Source of the DNA: Elusimicrobiota bacterium
GTDB lineage: Bacteria > Elusimicrobiota > UBA8919
Assembly: GCA_028718185.1 (NCBI GenBank)
Contig: JAQUMH010000007.1
Coordinates: 1 to 64,000, forward strand
Length of the DNA stretch: 64,000 bases
Reading direction: 5' to 3'
Numbering within the stretch: position 1 is the first letter of the stretch; each line of letters begins with the position of its first letter. Below, one piece after another: positions 1 to 5,779 of the stretch. Both the position numbers and the translations under genes were made by a program. The notes beneath the pieces were generated by a model. It had not been told where the DNA came from. It did not search any database and worked only from the letters and a program-made list of their open reading frames with translations.

Positions 1-16
1 ATGTTTTTTTGTTCAT
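1..16 (-). CDS. 5' end of a gene running off the left edge
   Basis: On the minus strand an ATG at 16-14 opens a frame reading M-N-K-K-T before the window ends. An AAAGGGG purine tract at 30-24, seven bases upstream, is a reasonable ribosome binding site. A TATAAT-like box lies at 71-66 without a clear -35 partner. Only five codons are visible, so no product can be named and the call rests on the start context alone. Confidence 0.35.
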
Positions 17-112
17 TATTAAACCCCTTTGATATTGTAAAGTCTATTTTTTACTTTTTCAGACGATTATACAATATTTTAAGGGTTAAAAAAACAACAC
101 AAAAATACTATT

Positions 113-150
113 AAGCCCATTGCGAGGCGTAGCCGAAGCAATCTAACTTG
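113..150. repeat. REP-like intergenic repeat (half copy)
   Basis: The stretch CCATTGCGAGGCGTAGCCGAAGCAATC matches the left half of the longer palindromic repeat at 16131-16206. The sequence class (CATTGCGA ... GAAGCAATC) is a familiar dispersed intergenic repeat in bacteria. It lies downstream of the tRNA-Val gene. Confidence 0.55.
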
Positions 151-162
151 TTAAGTATTATT

Positions 163-236
163 TGGGCGGTACAGGATTTGAACCTGTGACCCCTTGCGTG
201 TCGAGCAAGTACTCTAGCCAACTGAGCTAACCGCCC
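163..236 (-). tRNA. tRNA-Val (GAC)
   Basis: The minus strand folds as a cloverleaf with acceptor GGGCGGT/ACCGCCC, D-stem GCTC/GAGT, anticodon stem CTTGC/GCAAG and T-stem ACAGG/CCTGT. The seven-base loop TCGACAC puts GAC at positions 34-36, giving valine. Position 33 reads C instead of the near-universal T. The discriminator is A and no CCA is encoded. It is the last tRNA of a leftward tRNA run. Confidence 0.88.
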
Positions 237-245
237 ATAAAAATC

Positions 246-317
246 AATTACAAATTAAGAATTAAGAATTCTACATTTACTCTAAATTCTCAATTCTTAA
301 CTTTAAATTCTTAATTG
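246..317. repeat. AT-rich inverted repeat between tRNA-Val and the tRNA-Cys region
   Basis: The left arm carries two AATTAAGAATT-type units. They are mirrored after about 25 bases by AATTCTTAA and AAATTCTTAATTG. The two arms could form a long, weak AU hairpin in the tRNA transcript. No coding sequence is seen here. Confidence 0.5.
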
Positions 318-323
318 CTTTAC

Positions 324-377
324 AAAGGTGCGGGGCGGATTTGCCCGCCACTGAATCTATGGCGGGTTGCAGACTGC
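324..377 (-). pseudogene. chimeric tRNA-Cys fragment with palindromic replacement (3' copy)
   Basis: On the minus strand, 377-367 matches the tRNA-Cys anticodon arm through position 37. A 23-base palindrome, CCCGCCA...TGGCGGG, follows at 366-344. Then 343-327 is identical to the last 17 bases of the tRNA-Cys gene (T-loop, T-stem 3' side and acceptor). The 3' side of the anticodon stem and the variable loop are lost, and the 5' acceptor and D-arm are absent, so it cannot be a functional tRNA. It lies directly downstream of the intact tRNA-Cys. Confidence 0.75.
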
Positions 378-389
378 CCCTTTCCTTTT

Positions 390-462
390 AGGTGCGGGGC
401 GGATTTGAACCGCCGAATCGCAGTTTTGCAGACTGCTCCCTTAGCCACTTGGGTACCGCACC
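390..462 (-). tRNA. tRNA-Cys (GCA)
   Basis: The cloverleaf has acceptor GGTGCGG/CCGCACC, anticodon stem GCAGT/ACTGC with loop CTGCAAA (anticodon GCA), and T-stem GGCGG/CCGCC around loop TTCAAAT. The discriminator is T (U). The 5' end lies one base from the stop codon of the GIY-YIG gene, so the two are probably co-transcribed. Two broken relatives flank it at 324-377 and 737-824. Confidence 0.92.
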
Positions 463-463
463 A

Positions 464-727
464 TCAACCTGATTTTTTCGTAATTAACCTATTAAGAAAT
501 TCTCTACCTTTTCCTGACTTAAAAAACCTTTCCCTACTCTGAGATACATTCTTATTTTCGTGTTTTTCAAAATGTACCAATTTAAATGGTCGTCTAAATT
601 TTGTTGAATCTACTAATCCGCTATTATGCTGTTTAAATCTTAGCTCCAAATCAGAAGTATATCCTACATATAACTTATTATCTTTTTCACTACGCAAAAC
701 ATAGACATAAAACTCATTTTCTTGCAT
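464..727 (-). CDS. GIY-YIG (URI-type) endonuclease, 87 aa
   Basis: This is a small single-domain GIY-YIG protein of the UPF0213/URI family. The core is visible: YVYVL (the GIY element) near residue 7, LYVGYT (the YIG element) near 19, the conserved R-x3-H segment near 30, and the metal-binding Glu in SRERFFKSGKGREF near 65. The length is normal for these solo nucleases. The gene sits between a broken and an intact tRNA-Cys and ends one base before the intact one. No good Shine-Dalgarno precedes the ATG. The family is known; its target is not. The position suggests a selfish element associated with the tRNA-Cys gene, which is inference. Confidence 0.85.
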   Translation of the reverse strand: MQENEFYVYVLRSEKDNKLYVGYTSDLELRFKQHNSGLVDSTKFRRPFKLVHFEKHENKNVSQSRERFFKSGKGREFLNRLITKKSG

Positions 728-736
728 TTATTTACT

Positions 737-824
737 GTGGCGGATTTAATCTATGGCGGATTTGCCCGCCAACAAATCTGTGGCGGGTTGCAGACTGCTC
801 CCTTAGCCACTTGGGTACCGCACC
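737..824 (-). pseudogene. chimeric tRNA-Cys fragment with palindromic replacement (5' copy)
   Basis: Bases 824-788 on the minus strand are identical to the first 37 bases of the intact tRNA-Cys, ending just after the anticodon at position 37. The sequence then switches to CCCGCCA...TGGCGGG (787-765), followed by CAAATCCGCC and two copies of a TGGCGGATTT motif (plus-strand 738-747 and 754-763). The 3' acceptor is missing, so it is not a working tRNA. The GIY-YIG gene starts ten bases further on. Confidence 0.75.
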
Positions 825-834
825 GTACTACAAA

Positions 835-906
835 AGCGGGAGACGGGGCTCGAACCCGCGACATTCTCGTTGGCAACGAGACATTCTACCACTGAATTAC
901 TCCCGC
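835..906 (-). tRNA. tRNA-Gly (GCC)
   Basis: Acceptor GCGGGAG pairs with CTCCCGC. The D-arm ATTC...GAAT, the anticodon arm CTCGT-TGCCAAC-GAGAA region and the T-arm CGGG-TTCGAGC-CCCG are all readable. The anticodon GCC gives glycine. There is no encoded CCA. It lies between tRNA-Pro and the tRNA-Cys region in a leftward cluster. Confidence 0.93.
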
Positions 907-972
907 ATTCACTTATATTGAACTTATATTATTATATTCTTTTCTAACGAAATGTCAATATTGCACATCAAA

Positions 973-1046
973 TCGGGGTGACTGGACTTGAACCAGCGGC
1001 CTCTTGCTCCCAAAGCAAGCGCTCTAGCCAACTGAGCTACACCCCG
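973..1046 (-). tRNA. tRNA-Pro (TGG)
   Basis: The cloverleaf has acceptor CGGGGTG/CACCCCG, D-stem GCTC/GAGC, anticodon stem CTTGC/GCAAG with loop TTTGGGA (anticodon TGG), and T-stem CTGG/CCAG. The discriminator is A. It starts 45 bases after the rdgB stop codon and is the first tRNA of the cluster. Confidence 0.93.
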
Positions 1047-1091
1047 TAATTAAAATTATAAGAAAAAATCCTACTAATGTCAAATTTATCT

Positions 1092-1688
1092 CTATTTAAC
1101 TAATTGTTTCAACAATATTTGTTTAGCTTTTTTAAATGCAATTGCTCTATGACTTATCTTGTTTTTTTCGGTAGTTATAATTTCAGCAAATGTTTTCTTA
1201 AGTTTTGGGGAATAAAACACAGGGTCATAACCGAAACCGTTTGTTCCTTTGGGTTTTTCGGTGATGTAACCCAAAACTGACCCCTCAGCTGTTTTTACTC
1301 TACCATCCGGAAACACAATAGCAACTACTGTTTTAAATTTTGCTTTTCTTTTTTTATATGGAACATCCTTAAGAAGTTTTAAAAGTTTTCTATTGTTATC
1401 TTCATAACTGCAATTTGAACCTGCAAATCTCGCTGAACGGACACCCGGTTTACCATTTAAAAAATCTACCTCTAACCCGCTATCGTCTGCAAGTGTTAAT
1501 TCTTTGGTCAATTTATTTATTGTTTTTGCTTTTTTGATAGCATTTTCTTCCAAAGTTTTTCTGTCTTCAACTATTTCCGGAAATCGCTTTAAAGTTACTA
1601 TTTTAAATCTACTTCCAAGAATTTCCTTTATTTCTCTAATTTTATCTTTATTTTGAGTGGCAAGTACAATTTTATTTTTTAATAACAT
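1092..1688 (-). CDS. rdgB: XTP/dITP diphosphatase RdgB (HAM1 family)
   Basis: This house-cleaning enzyme hydrolyses non-canonical purine triphosphates (XTP, ITP, dITP) to monophosphates and keeps them out of nucleic acids. The 198-residue length is typical. Family motifs are intact: ATQNKDKIREI near residue 10, LADDSGLEVDFLNGKPGVRSAR near 66-87, GFGYDPVF near 152 and ISHRAIAF near 178. The start overlaps the end of rph by 17 bases, so translation is probably coupled. The rph-rdgB pairing is common in bacteria. Confidence 0.95.
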   Translation of the reverse strand: MLLKNKIVLATQNKDKIREIKEILGSRFKIVTLKRFPEIVEDRKTLEENAIKKAKTINKLTKELTLADDSGLEVDFLNGKPGVRSARFAGSNCSYEDNNRKLLKLLKDVPYKKRKAKFKTVVAIVFPDGRVKTAEGSVLGYITEKPKGTNGFGYDPVFYSPKLKKTFAEIITTEKNKISHRAIAFKKAKQILLKQLVK

Positions 1689-2948: not shown

Positions 2949-5779
2949 TTCACACCTCCAATATCTCTTACTATTTCCTCGATTTTATTTTTTTTCTCTA
3001 ATGTCTCCTGCATCTTCTGTTTCACCCTTTCAACTTCTTCAGGGTCTGCTTTTTTAATAAAATTATCATTCGATATTTTAGATTCATAAACTTTTAATTC
3101 CTGGTTGATTTTTTGCAGCTGCACCCCTAATCGCTTCTTTTCTACTTCAAAATCTATTTTACCTTCTAAAAGAACAAATATTTCCATATCACCGGTAATT
3201 GCCGAAGCGGACAACTCCGGCTTCCGGGTAGTATCTGTAATTTTTATCTCTTTTACTTTTGCCAAGGAAATTATGTGCTGCATATTTTCAGAAATAATAT
3301 CTTTTGTTTCTCCGGAAGCTTTAATAACAATGTCTACAAAATCCGATAACTTTATATTCATAGCTGAACGAATATTTCTTATTGCAGTAATTATATCTAT
3401 AACTTTTTGCATTTTTGCTTGGGCGGATAAATCGATGACTTTGTTTTCCGCTTGTGGATATTCCGAAATCATAACGCTTTTATCTTGTTTTTTTATACTT
3501 TGATAAATTTCTTCAGTTATAAAAGGCATTATTGGGTGAAGCAGTTTTAATGTTTTTTCTAGAATTTCTATTAAAATTTCCTGCACTATTAATTTCTTGG
3601 TTTCATTTTTACCATAAAGCCTGACCTTTGAAAATTCTAAATACCAGTCGCAATATTTTGACCAGATAAATTCATAAAGTAACCGGGATGCTTCTGCTGA
3701 ATTATAATTTTCTATTGCTGTTGTAACACCTTTTATTGTTAGATTTAATTCTATCAGAATCCATTTGTCCGTCAATTCCAAATCTGCATAATCTGAATTC
3801 TTTAAATCGGTAATCTGCGTTTCCATATTCATCAGAATAAATCTTGAAGCATTCCATAACTTATTGGCAAAATTCCTTGCCATGAGAAAATTCTCATCTG
3901 ATATTTGCATATCTCTTCCTGGAATTCCCTGGAAGGCAAGAGCAAACCGCAGAGCATCGGTTCCATATTTATCCATTATAGTTAAAGGGTCAATTACATT
4001 ACCTAATGATTTTGACATCTTTTTGCCTTTGGAGTCACGAACTATACCGTGAATATAAACATCACTGTAAGGCACTTCATTTTTAAATTCCAAACCCATC
4101 ATAATCATTCTTGCTACCCATAAATATAAAATTTCATGACCGGTTACGAGAACGTCAGTTGGATAGTAATATTGCAATTCTTTTGTTTCATCAGGCCAGC
4201 CAAAAACGGACATAGGCCAAAGTGCAGAAGAAAACCATGTGTCAAGAACATCCGGGTCCTGAACAAAATCTGATTTACCGCAAATCGAACATTTACCCGG
4301 TTGAGTTACCGACGCATAAACACCTTTTGTTTGTTTCGAAACATTAGCAACAAAATATTTATTTTTTTTAAGACCATTTTTAATATTTTCTATAGATTCC
4401 CCTTCATTCACTCTTATTTCTATACTAGGGTTAATTCCTTTTTTTTCAGGATTTATTTCAATTATATTACTGCCTGCACAATGTAAACAATACCACAATG
4501 GAATTCTATGTCCCCACCATATTTGACGGGAAATACACCAATCTCTTAAATTTTCGAGCCACAGGAGATATGGTTTTGACCATTTTTCCGGAAAGAATTT
4601 CGTTTCTTCTTTTCCTGAAGACTCAATTGCATGTCCAGCCATTTCAGACATTTTCATAAACCATTGTTCAGATGTGAACGATTCAACCATAGTATTGCAA
4701 CGGTAACATCTTTTTTTTGGGCCCGTATAATTTTCTTCTTTTTCTAAAAATTGATTTTTGTTAAGTCGTTCTATTATAATTTTTCTTGCCTCATCCCTGT
4801 CTTTACCTACTAAATCGGCAACTTCATTGTTTTTTATTTCTTTTCTATTTAAATCAACTACTATATCGCTTGTAATTCTTGCCTTTTTATCAATGGCGTT
4901 AATGTAAATAAGATTATGTTTTTTTGCTATAGCATCATCATTTGAATCGTGCGCAGGTGTTATTTTTACTGCACCGGTACCAAACTTTGGGTCAACCATT
5001 TCATCCGCTATAATAGGTATAATACGATTTACCAAAGGAAGAATGGCACTTTTACCAATAAATTTCTTATATCTTTCATCATTTGGATTTATAGCTACAG
5101 CAGTGTCACCAAGCATAGTTTCCGGACGTGTCGTTGCTACAGTAATGTAATTGTCAGGTTCATTTTGTATCGGATATTTTATATACCAAAGTTTGCCTTT
5201 TTCATCTTCCTGCTCTACTTCACTTTCATTTAGAGCAGTTTCGCACCTCGGACACCAGTCGACAAATCTAGTATCTCGATAAATCAATCCTTTATTGTAA
5301 AGTTCTATAAAAGCATAGTTAACTGATTTTGAACGTTTTTCATCCATTGTAAATGAAGTTCTGTCCCAATCGCACGAACATCCCATTTTCTTTAACTGAC
5401 TCAAAATTGTATTGCTCGTTTTTTGAGCCCAATCTACCATAATTTTAGTAAATTCTTCCCTGCTGAAATCATCCCGTTTTTTGCCGTCTTTTTTTAATTC
5501 TTTTTCAATAATATTTTGGGTGGCAATTCCACCGTGGTCAGTCCCCGGGACCCAGCAAGCGTTGAAACCATTCATTCTTTTAAATCGGATAAGTATATCC
5601 TGAAGAAGATTGTTCAGGGCATGCCCAATATGTAAAGAACCTGTCACATTAGGCGGAGGAATTACTATTGTAAATGGTTCTTTTTTATCGGGTTCTGAAT
5701 TGAAAAGTCTTTCTTTCTCCCAATATTTAAGCCATTTTTCTTCAACTTCTTTTGGTTCGTAAATCTTTGAAATTTCCAT
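2945..5779 (-). CDS. valS: valyl-tRNA synthetase
   Basis: This class Ia synthetase charges tRNA-Val. The HIGH signature (GSLHIGHALN) is at residues 48-56 and KMSKS (GKKMSKSLGNVIDP) is near 587. An editing domain, anticodon-binding domain and C-terminal coiled-coil arm (about 870-944) are present. At 944 residues it is slightly long. About 60 extra residues sit between a CLHC pair (near 433) and a CSICG pair (near 498), inside what is usually a compact zinc-knuckle region. It is the first gene of the leftward valS-lipoprotein-rph-rdgB-tRNA run and has its own promoter at 5825-5853. Confidence 0.97.
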   Translation of the reverse strand: MEISKIYEPKEVEEKWLKYWEKERLFNSEPDKKEPFTIVIPPPNVTGSLHIGHALNNLLQDILIRFKRMNGFNACWVPGTDHGGIATQNIIEKELKKDGKKRDDFSREEFTKIMVDWAQKTSNTILSQLKKMGCSCDWDRTSFTMDEKRSKSVNYAFIELYNKGLIYRDTRFVDWCPRCETALNESEVEQEDEKGKLWYIKYPIQNEPDNYITVATTRPETMLGDTAVAINPNDERYKKFIGKSAILPLVNRIIPIIADEMVDPKFGTGAVKITPAHDSNDDAIAKKHNLIYINAIDKKARITSDIVVDLNRKEIKNNEVADLVGKDRDEARKIIIERLNKNQFLEKEENYTGPKKRCYRCNTMVESFTSEQWFMKMSEMAGHAIESSGKEETKFFPEKWSKPYLLWLENLRDWCISRQIWWGHRIPLWYCLHCAGSNIIEINPEKKGINPSIEIRVNEGESIENIKNGLKKNKYFVANVSKQTKGVYASVTQPGKCSICGKSDFVQDPDVLDTWFSSALWPMSVFGWPDETKELQYYYPTDVLVTGHEILYLWVARMIMMGLEFKNEVPYSDVYIHGIVRDSKGKKMSKSLGNVIDPLTIMDKYGTDALRFALAFQGIPGRDMQISDENFLMARNFANKLWNASRFILMNMETQITDLKNSDYADLELTDKWILIELNLTIKGVTTAIENYNSAEASRLLYEFIWSKYCDWYLEFSKVRLYGKNETKKLIVQEILIEILEKTLKLLHPIMPFITEEIYQSIKKQDKSVMISEYPQAENKVIDLSAQAKMQKVIDIITAIRNIRSAMNIKLSDFVDIVIKASGETKDIISENMQHIISLAKVKEIKITDTTRKPELSASAITGDMEIFVLLEGKIDFEVEKKRLGVQLQKINQELKVYESKISNDNFIKKADPEEVERVKQKMQETLEKKNKIEEIVRDIGGVK

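Follow-up and report, generated by a model that had tools for sequence, protein, structure and literature searches.

What is a small gene for a GIY-YIG nuclease doing among broken copies of a tRNA-Cys gene in a member of the Elusimicrobiota, and how does the cell keep the tRNA? As essential genes that hardly differ from one species to the next, tRNA genes make good landing sites for selfish DNA provided that the host survives. We addressed the question starting from the window, i.e. the whole 64,000-nt stretch of contig JAQUMH010000007.1 that was analysed, and extended the comparison to relatives and to other phyla. On the evidence set out below, the locus is probably a selfish mobile GIY-YIG nuclease gene that inserted at tRNA-Cys in a tRNA-preserving, homing-endonuclease-like manner, comparable to SegB of phages.

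On the minus strand, window positions 326–824 hold, in this order, a 5′ piece of tRNA-Cys, a palindrome, the GIY-YIG ORF, an intact tRNA-Cys, nt 24–37 of the same tRNA, a second palindrome and nt 56–73 (Table 1). A preliminary description of the locus had equated the 5′ chimera with the first 37 nt of tRNA-Cys, which the alignment with the intact gene bears out over its full length, and had placed an intact tRNA-Cys and a small GIY-YIG gene between the chimeras, where they are indeed found; the ORF product matches the Pfam GIY-YIG profile PF01541 (E-value 4.7e-16, 59.3 bits against a cut-off of 22.6). The 3′ chimera resumes with the end of tRNA-Cys as reported, with 18 identical bases rather than 17. 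The palindrome said to be common to both chimeras is common in its arms only (CCCGCCA-N-TGGCGGG), the centres being different. In both tRNA-Cys pieces, the stretch swapped for the hairpin is exactly nt 38–55.

Table 1. Features of the tRNA-Cys locus and its neighbours in the window (positions in nt)
Feature	Position	Strand	Remarks
tRNA-Gly(GCC)	835..906	-	upstream neighbour; kept in relatives
tRNA-Cys 5′ fragment, nt 1-37, identical to the intact gene	788..824	-	identical over 37 nt, E about 1e-17
Palindrome CCCGCCACAGATTTGTTGGCGGG in place of tRNA-Cys nt 38-55	765..787	-	23 bp
tRNA-Cys nt 56-65 (CAAATCCGCC, 755-764), then a degenerate repeat of the same motif	738..764	-	
GIY-YIG nuclease ORF, 87 aa	464..727	-	stop codon 1 nt before intact tRNA-Cys
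Intact tRNA-Cys(GCA)	390..462	-	62 bits (Rfam search)
tRNA-Cys nt 24-37, one change, downstream chimera	367..380	-	
Palindrome CCCGCCATAGATTCAGTGGCGGG in place of tRNA-Cys nt 38-55	344..366	-	
tRNA-Cys 3′ fragment, nt 56-73	326..343	-	18 identical bases
tRNA-Val(GAC)	162..237	-	downstream neighbour; kept in relatives

In an Rfam search of window positions 1–1200, the matches were limited to four tRNAs and a single one below the threshold. From tRNA-Gly to tRNA-Cys, the coding strand holds one ORF of at least 50 aa, the GIY-YIG gene. Several familiar arrangements were rejected on these grounds. A group I intron with a homing endonuclease does not fit, the same Rfam search having given no intron RNA core; nor does a split or intron-bearing tRNA, given that an intact tRNA-Cys is present and that the pieces lack nt 38–55. 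A tRNA-targeting integrative element with an integrase was discarded in view of the absence of any other ORF of that size in the interval.

To establish whether the window genome had gained the gene, its tRNA-Cys gene was searched in nine relatives. The order Gly-Cys-Val is kept in six of them (G001, G002, G003, G004, G005 and G008), and the order Cys-Val is found at the same place in G006 and G011, while G007 gave no match to this tRNA-Cys gene. All eight relatives with the locus have a complete tRNA-Cys without an adjacent GIY-YIG gene, and none of them has partial tRNA-Cys copies, strong ones occurring in the window genome only. Given that the relatives have an intact tRNA-Cys and lack both the nuclease gene and the Cys pieces, the window genome carries an insertion. 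The preliminary description had proposed this comparison as a check, and in it the gene-less relatives are free of Cys chimeras; hairpin chimeras without the gene exist at other tRNAs of some relatives.

A second empty site was found in Patescibacteria, at the tRNA-Ser(TGA) gene in the genus of G061. In G075 the site consists of the promoter region and an intact tRNA, with no gene, while in G061 and G073 the promoter region is followed by nt 1–20 of the tRNA, a GIY-YIG ORF and an intact tRNA, and a hairpin sits between nt 12 and 13 of the 1–20 piece. Comparison of the filled and empty alleles thus indicates that insertion yields a second 5′ part of the tRNA and leaves the complete copy in place. 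The suggestion that the host tRNA is kept as an intact copy beside the cassette therefore agrees with what is seen at both the tRNA-Cys and the tRNA-Ser loci.

The arrangement recurs at other tRNA genes. The window genome has five small GIY-YIG genes, and a second locus of the same anatomy, with different sequences, lies at tRNA-Arg(TCT) (L004/L106), where the gene is flanked by two chimeras made of the tRNA-Arg 5′ part and an altered anticodon hairpin, with an intact tRNA after them. When the small GIY-YIG genes of 60 relatives were compared together with their flanking DNA, a same-strand tRNA was found within 320 bp at 19 of the 25 Elusimicrobiota loci of the clade of the window gene, the figure for the remaining small GIY-YIG genes being 9 of 48 (Fisher p = 2.7e-6), some of which belong to another subfamily that is regularly placed after tRNA-Gly(CCC). 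When 85,000 species genomes were scanned with the clade consensus, using no criterion other than protein similarity, 80 loci were returned, mostly from Patescibacteria, with others in Omnitrophota, Cloacimonadota, Elusimicrobiota, Margulisbacteria, Verrucomicrobiota and further taxa. Among these 80 loci in named genomes, 40 have a tRNA within 500 bp, and in all 40 it is on the same strand as the gene.

Of 120 sampled clade loci, 65 lie no further than 320 bp from a tRNA on their own strand, and pieces of this tRNA were detected as well at 38 of the 65, compared with 2.2% when tRNAs of other isotypes served as queries. The fragments are strongly ordered: 55 matches are on the same strand and 2 on the opposite one, the upstream fragments correspond to the 5′ half of the tRNA in 32 of 34 cases and the downstream ones to the 3′ half in 15 of 21. 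At most loci, the sequences of the intact tRNA and of the fragments are identical, and several clade ORFs end inside the following tRNA copy, whose 5′ part provides the stop codon. Each of 12 genomes has between 3 and 8 matches to the gene. The claim that the GIY-YIG gene is an inserted selfish cassette tied to tRNA genes is thus upheld by the empty sites at tRNA-Cys and at the independent tRNA-Ser locus, and by the 18 tRNA isotypes represented in the clade. Clear specialization of protein lineages for particular isotypes was looked for and rejected, the signal being weak (34 label changes against 40.3 in shuffled data).

The clade protein, of about 85 aa, shows no recognizable DNA-binding domain. 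Residues Y9, Y20, G22, R30, H34 and E66 are invariant across 18 relatives, so that the catalytic Tyr, Tyr, Arg, His and Glu are kept. In the protein tree, the window gene falls inside a clade supported at 95/92, in which 18 of 23 rows are close to a tRNA. A single-sequence AlphaFold model of the protein was of low confidence (mean pLDDT 63).

The mobility of this clade is well supported by the empty sites, the copy number and the scatter over isotypes. Insertion is observed at two independent loci, as are the order of 5′ piece, gene, intact tRNA and 3′ piece, the presence of several copies per genome and the conservation of catalytic residues. From these we infer that the protein cuts the DNA of tRNA genes. 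In the mechanism that we propose, the element would have as its only gene a GIY-YIG endonuclease of about 85 aa reduced to the catalytic domain, and a family of such elements, in Elusimicrobiota and many lineages of Patescibacteria, would target tRNA genes of many isotypes, inserting in one direction. The nuclease would make a double-strand break in the tRNA gene, and the nuclease gene would spread when the break is mended by recombination with a copy that bears the cassette, part of the tRNA being duplicated in the process. Insertion would split one tRNA copy, with the 5′ piece ahead of the nuclease gene and, in many cases, the 3′ piece behind it, and a complete copy would stay beside the gene, so that the cell keeps its tRNA. 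The GC-rich palindromes would be no part of the gene, being resident dispersed repeats that settled in tRNA loops or were picked up at the breaks. Some observations count against this homing-like reading, namely the varying junctions, the gene-less hairpin chimeras at other tRNAs, a protein with no DNA-binding domain that can be recognized and, for the cutting itself, the fact that one tRNA-Cys copy in the window is broken at its loops while an identical intact copy remains. Natural cleave-and-rescue, in which the tRNA would have been recoded to resist cutting, was rejected because the intact tRNA equals its fragments at most loci.

Part of the clade lies elsewhere. At about 45% of the clade loci no tRNA is close by, and terminal inverted repeats are present at many of these instead, so that homing into tRNA genes is not the only mode of the family. 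An inverted repeat of at least 9 nt spans the ORF at 35 of 102 clade loci, and one of at least 14 nt does so at 23 of 102, against 0.3% by chance; such repeats occur at 26 of the 44 loci away from tRNAs and at 9 of the 58 tRNA-linked ones. These repeats speak for a rival reading of the family as a transposon and not as a homing gene, with the GIY-YIG protein acting as a minimal transposase on terminal inverted repeats and the tRNA-linked members being derivatives that target the hairpin-forming DNA of tRNA genes. In a Nomurabacteria genome, a 319-bp element (L150) with CCCCCACACC...GGTGTGGGGG ends has TCAAA on either side; at the orthologous site of G105, TCAAA occurs once and the element is missing, and G108 and G109 contain related copies, similar in their ends, at other places. 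Direct repeats also border other inverted-repeat elements (TTAT, ATAA and CGCG), and another member (L122, positions 3001–3261) is located inside the 16S rRNA gene of a Magasanikbacteria genome, in the variable region that precedes the 530 loop. Two palindromes without an ORF (L281, 30 bp, and L136, 71 bp) have CCCCCACACC ends and direct repeats, TCATA and CTTG, and resemble non-autonomous elements.

The same survey also weighs against the transposon explanation. The window gene is not among the clade loci with an inverted repeat of at least 9 nt, no target duplication was seen in the window, and few tRNA-linked loci have the repeats. An exact target duplication was detected at 7 of 33 inverted-repeat loci and at none of the other 26, the chance expectation being about 2% for duplications of at least 4 bp, and a uniform transposon model was rejected for this reason. 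Moreover, a transposase role for GIY-YIG proteins was not found in the literature searched. Considering both sides, we regard the transposon reading of the family as unlikely.

The exact 16-mer GGCGGATTTGCCCGCC is present at two places only in the 3.03-Mb window genome, both in the palindromes of the tRNA-Cys locus, while the looser hairpin CCCGCC-N4..26-GGCGGG has 41 copies genome-wide, including the two at that locus; a control pattern gave 7. In one Patescibacteria genome, hairpins of other sequences also take the place of nt 38–55, at its tRNA-Cys, tRNA-Tyr and tRNA-Trp (L177, L217). In pieces of tRNA-Ser and tRNA-Thr, hairpins lie between anticodon bases 35 and 36, and other dead tRNA pieces have them in the T-loop or in the D-arm (12/13). 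Around position 1500 of two loci (L295 and L298), a CCCGCC/GGCGGG palindrome splits the loop of another dispersed palindromic repeat, of the cattgcgag...caatc type, as if these palindromes may insert into hairpin loops in general. The dispersed copies and these interruptions indicate that the palindrome is a resident repeat favouring hairpin loops or breaks, and not a mark of the nuclease only. A second dispersed repeat, TGCGAGGCGTAGCCGAAGCAATC, lies at window positions 121–143 and has 6 copies in the genome (up to 3 mismatches).

Two parts of the preliminary description consequently have to be given up. The palindromes had been read as scars of the nuclease, whereas they form a dispersed family of 41 copies with no general link to tRNAs, which is one half of what had been named in advance as evidence to the contrary. 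Position 37/38 had been taken as the break, whereas there are junctions in the D-arm, at anticodon positions 35/36 and in the T-loop as well. Furthermore, tRNA chimeras with hairpins and without a gene occur in relatives at tRNA-Val (L248, L250) and tRNA-Ser (L241), from which it follows that the GIY-YIG gene is not always needed in cis. In one of these cases (L248, in G002, between tRNA-Cys and tRNA-Val), the acceptor of the broken tRNA-Val reads GGGCGGT and that of its intact neighbour GGGTGCG; with such differing acceptors, the intact tRNA-Val is not a copy of the broken one.

Gene-less chimeras and a dispersed palindrome are what would be expected if tRNA duplication and palindrome insertion arose on their own, through replication slippage and resident repeats, with the GIY-YIG gene riding as a passenger between the tRNA pieces. 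Against this, the association is a property of one particular GIY-YIG clade (19/25, compared with 9/48 for other genes) and its orientation is fixed; the gene itself is absent at the empty sites, and several of its ORFs end within the tRNA copy. A mere passenger is accordingly an improbable account of the locus.

The shared strand and the close spacing could also point to a domesticated host nuclease, co-transcribed with tRNAs and serving in tRNA processing or quality control, and a UPF0213-like subfamily that is kept after tRNA-Gly(CCC) offers something of a parallel. This subfamily lies 28–58 bp past tRNA-Gly(CCC), or 311 bp in the window genome (L055, L057, L061, L062 and L105), a placement kept in several genera and without tRNA debris. 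UPF0213-type small GIY-YIG proteins (PDB 1zg2 and 1ywl) are the closest solved sequences (3e-15 and 7e-12) and have the same size and domain as the clade proteins, but they form a separate branch of the tree and were not found embedded in tRNA debris. The window clade, for its part, is sporadic in presence, has many copies per genome at many isotypes, is missing from empty sites in close relatives and is surrounded by duplicated tRNA debris, all of which makes a host function very improbable. Finally, the window is at a contig end, as are some other loci, but the same architecture is seen in many assemblies made independently, in sequences that diverge and also well within long contigs, which leaves an assembly or binning artefact with a negligible probability.

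With selfish insertion into tRNA genes as the preferred reading, a broader proposal can be made tentatively, as one that we hold to be possible and somewhat doubtful. The clade may represent a new class of bacterial mobile element that has a bare GIY-YIG domain of ~85 aa as its only mobility enzyme, with an inverted-repeat branch of roughly 290–320 bp, which makes short target duplications and would be among the smallest autonomous DNA transposons known, and a tRNA branch that always leaves a working tRNA, both branches mobilizing or capturing small palindromes. The inverted-repeat relatives raise the possibility that a GIY-YIG domain alone moves an element of ~300 bp. Like REP/BIME palindromes and MITEs, the window palindrome is short, GC-rich and dispersed, and the ORF-less palindromes are MITE-like in sharing their ends with inverted-repeat GIY-YIG elements; the link between such palindromes and the GIY-YIG gene is only suggestive.

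In the open-licence literature searched, we found no account of GIY-YIG genes that sit among broken tRNA genes on bacterial chromosomes, nor of GIY-YIG elements with terminal inverted repeats, and this family of mobile DNA in the tRNA genes of several phyla is apparently undescribed. It suggests a route by which the host survives, one tRNA copy being broken and another kept intact, and could account for broken copies in tRNA arrays and, in the genomes of Elusimicrobiota and Patescibacteria, for part of the clutter of palindromes.

Among known systems, GIY-YIG ORFs have been reported in non-intron insertions of CPR rRNA genes, in a study that argues against their spread by homing there (PMC11270868). 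The clade member inside a 16S rRNA gene is such a case; tRNA genes, inverted repeats and palindromes, which characterize the present clade, are unmentioned in that study. Integrative elements with tRNA att sites likewise target a tRNA gene and leave it functional, but the window insertion is shorter than 0.5 kb, has no room for an integrase and belongs to a family in which the 5′ part of the tRNA, and not only its 3′ end, is usually duplicated.

The comparison with SegB is of more consequence. SegB of phages T4/T6 is a free-standing GIY-YIG homing endonuclease co-located with tRNA genes of many isotypes; it cuts inside tRNA genes at a motif, GTTCSAWTY, corresponding to the T-loop when the other strand is read, and it drives duplication of segments holding segB and tRNA-Tyr (PMC13096335). 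Homology beyond the domain was not apparent, the clade consensus having matched no T4-like phage among the phage records listed; these included distant small GIY-YIG proteins only, and PHROG homing-endonuclease families match weakly. No clade relative was found in viral contigs, so a phage origin is not supported. The clade genes are, like segB, linked to tRNAs, and several of their junctions fall in the T-loop. They differ from it in being bacterial chromosomal genes, in coding for proteins of about 85 aa and in lying amid broken tRNA pieces and palindromes. If their products do cut tRNA genes, the family would be a bacterial chromosomal counterpart of phage SegB.
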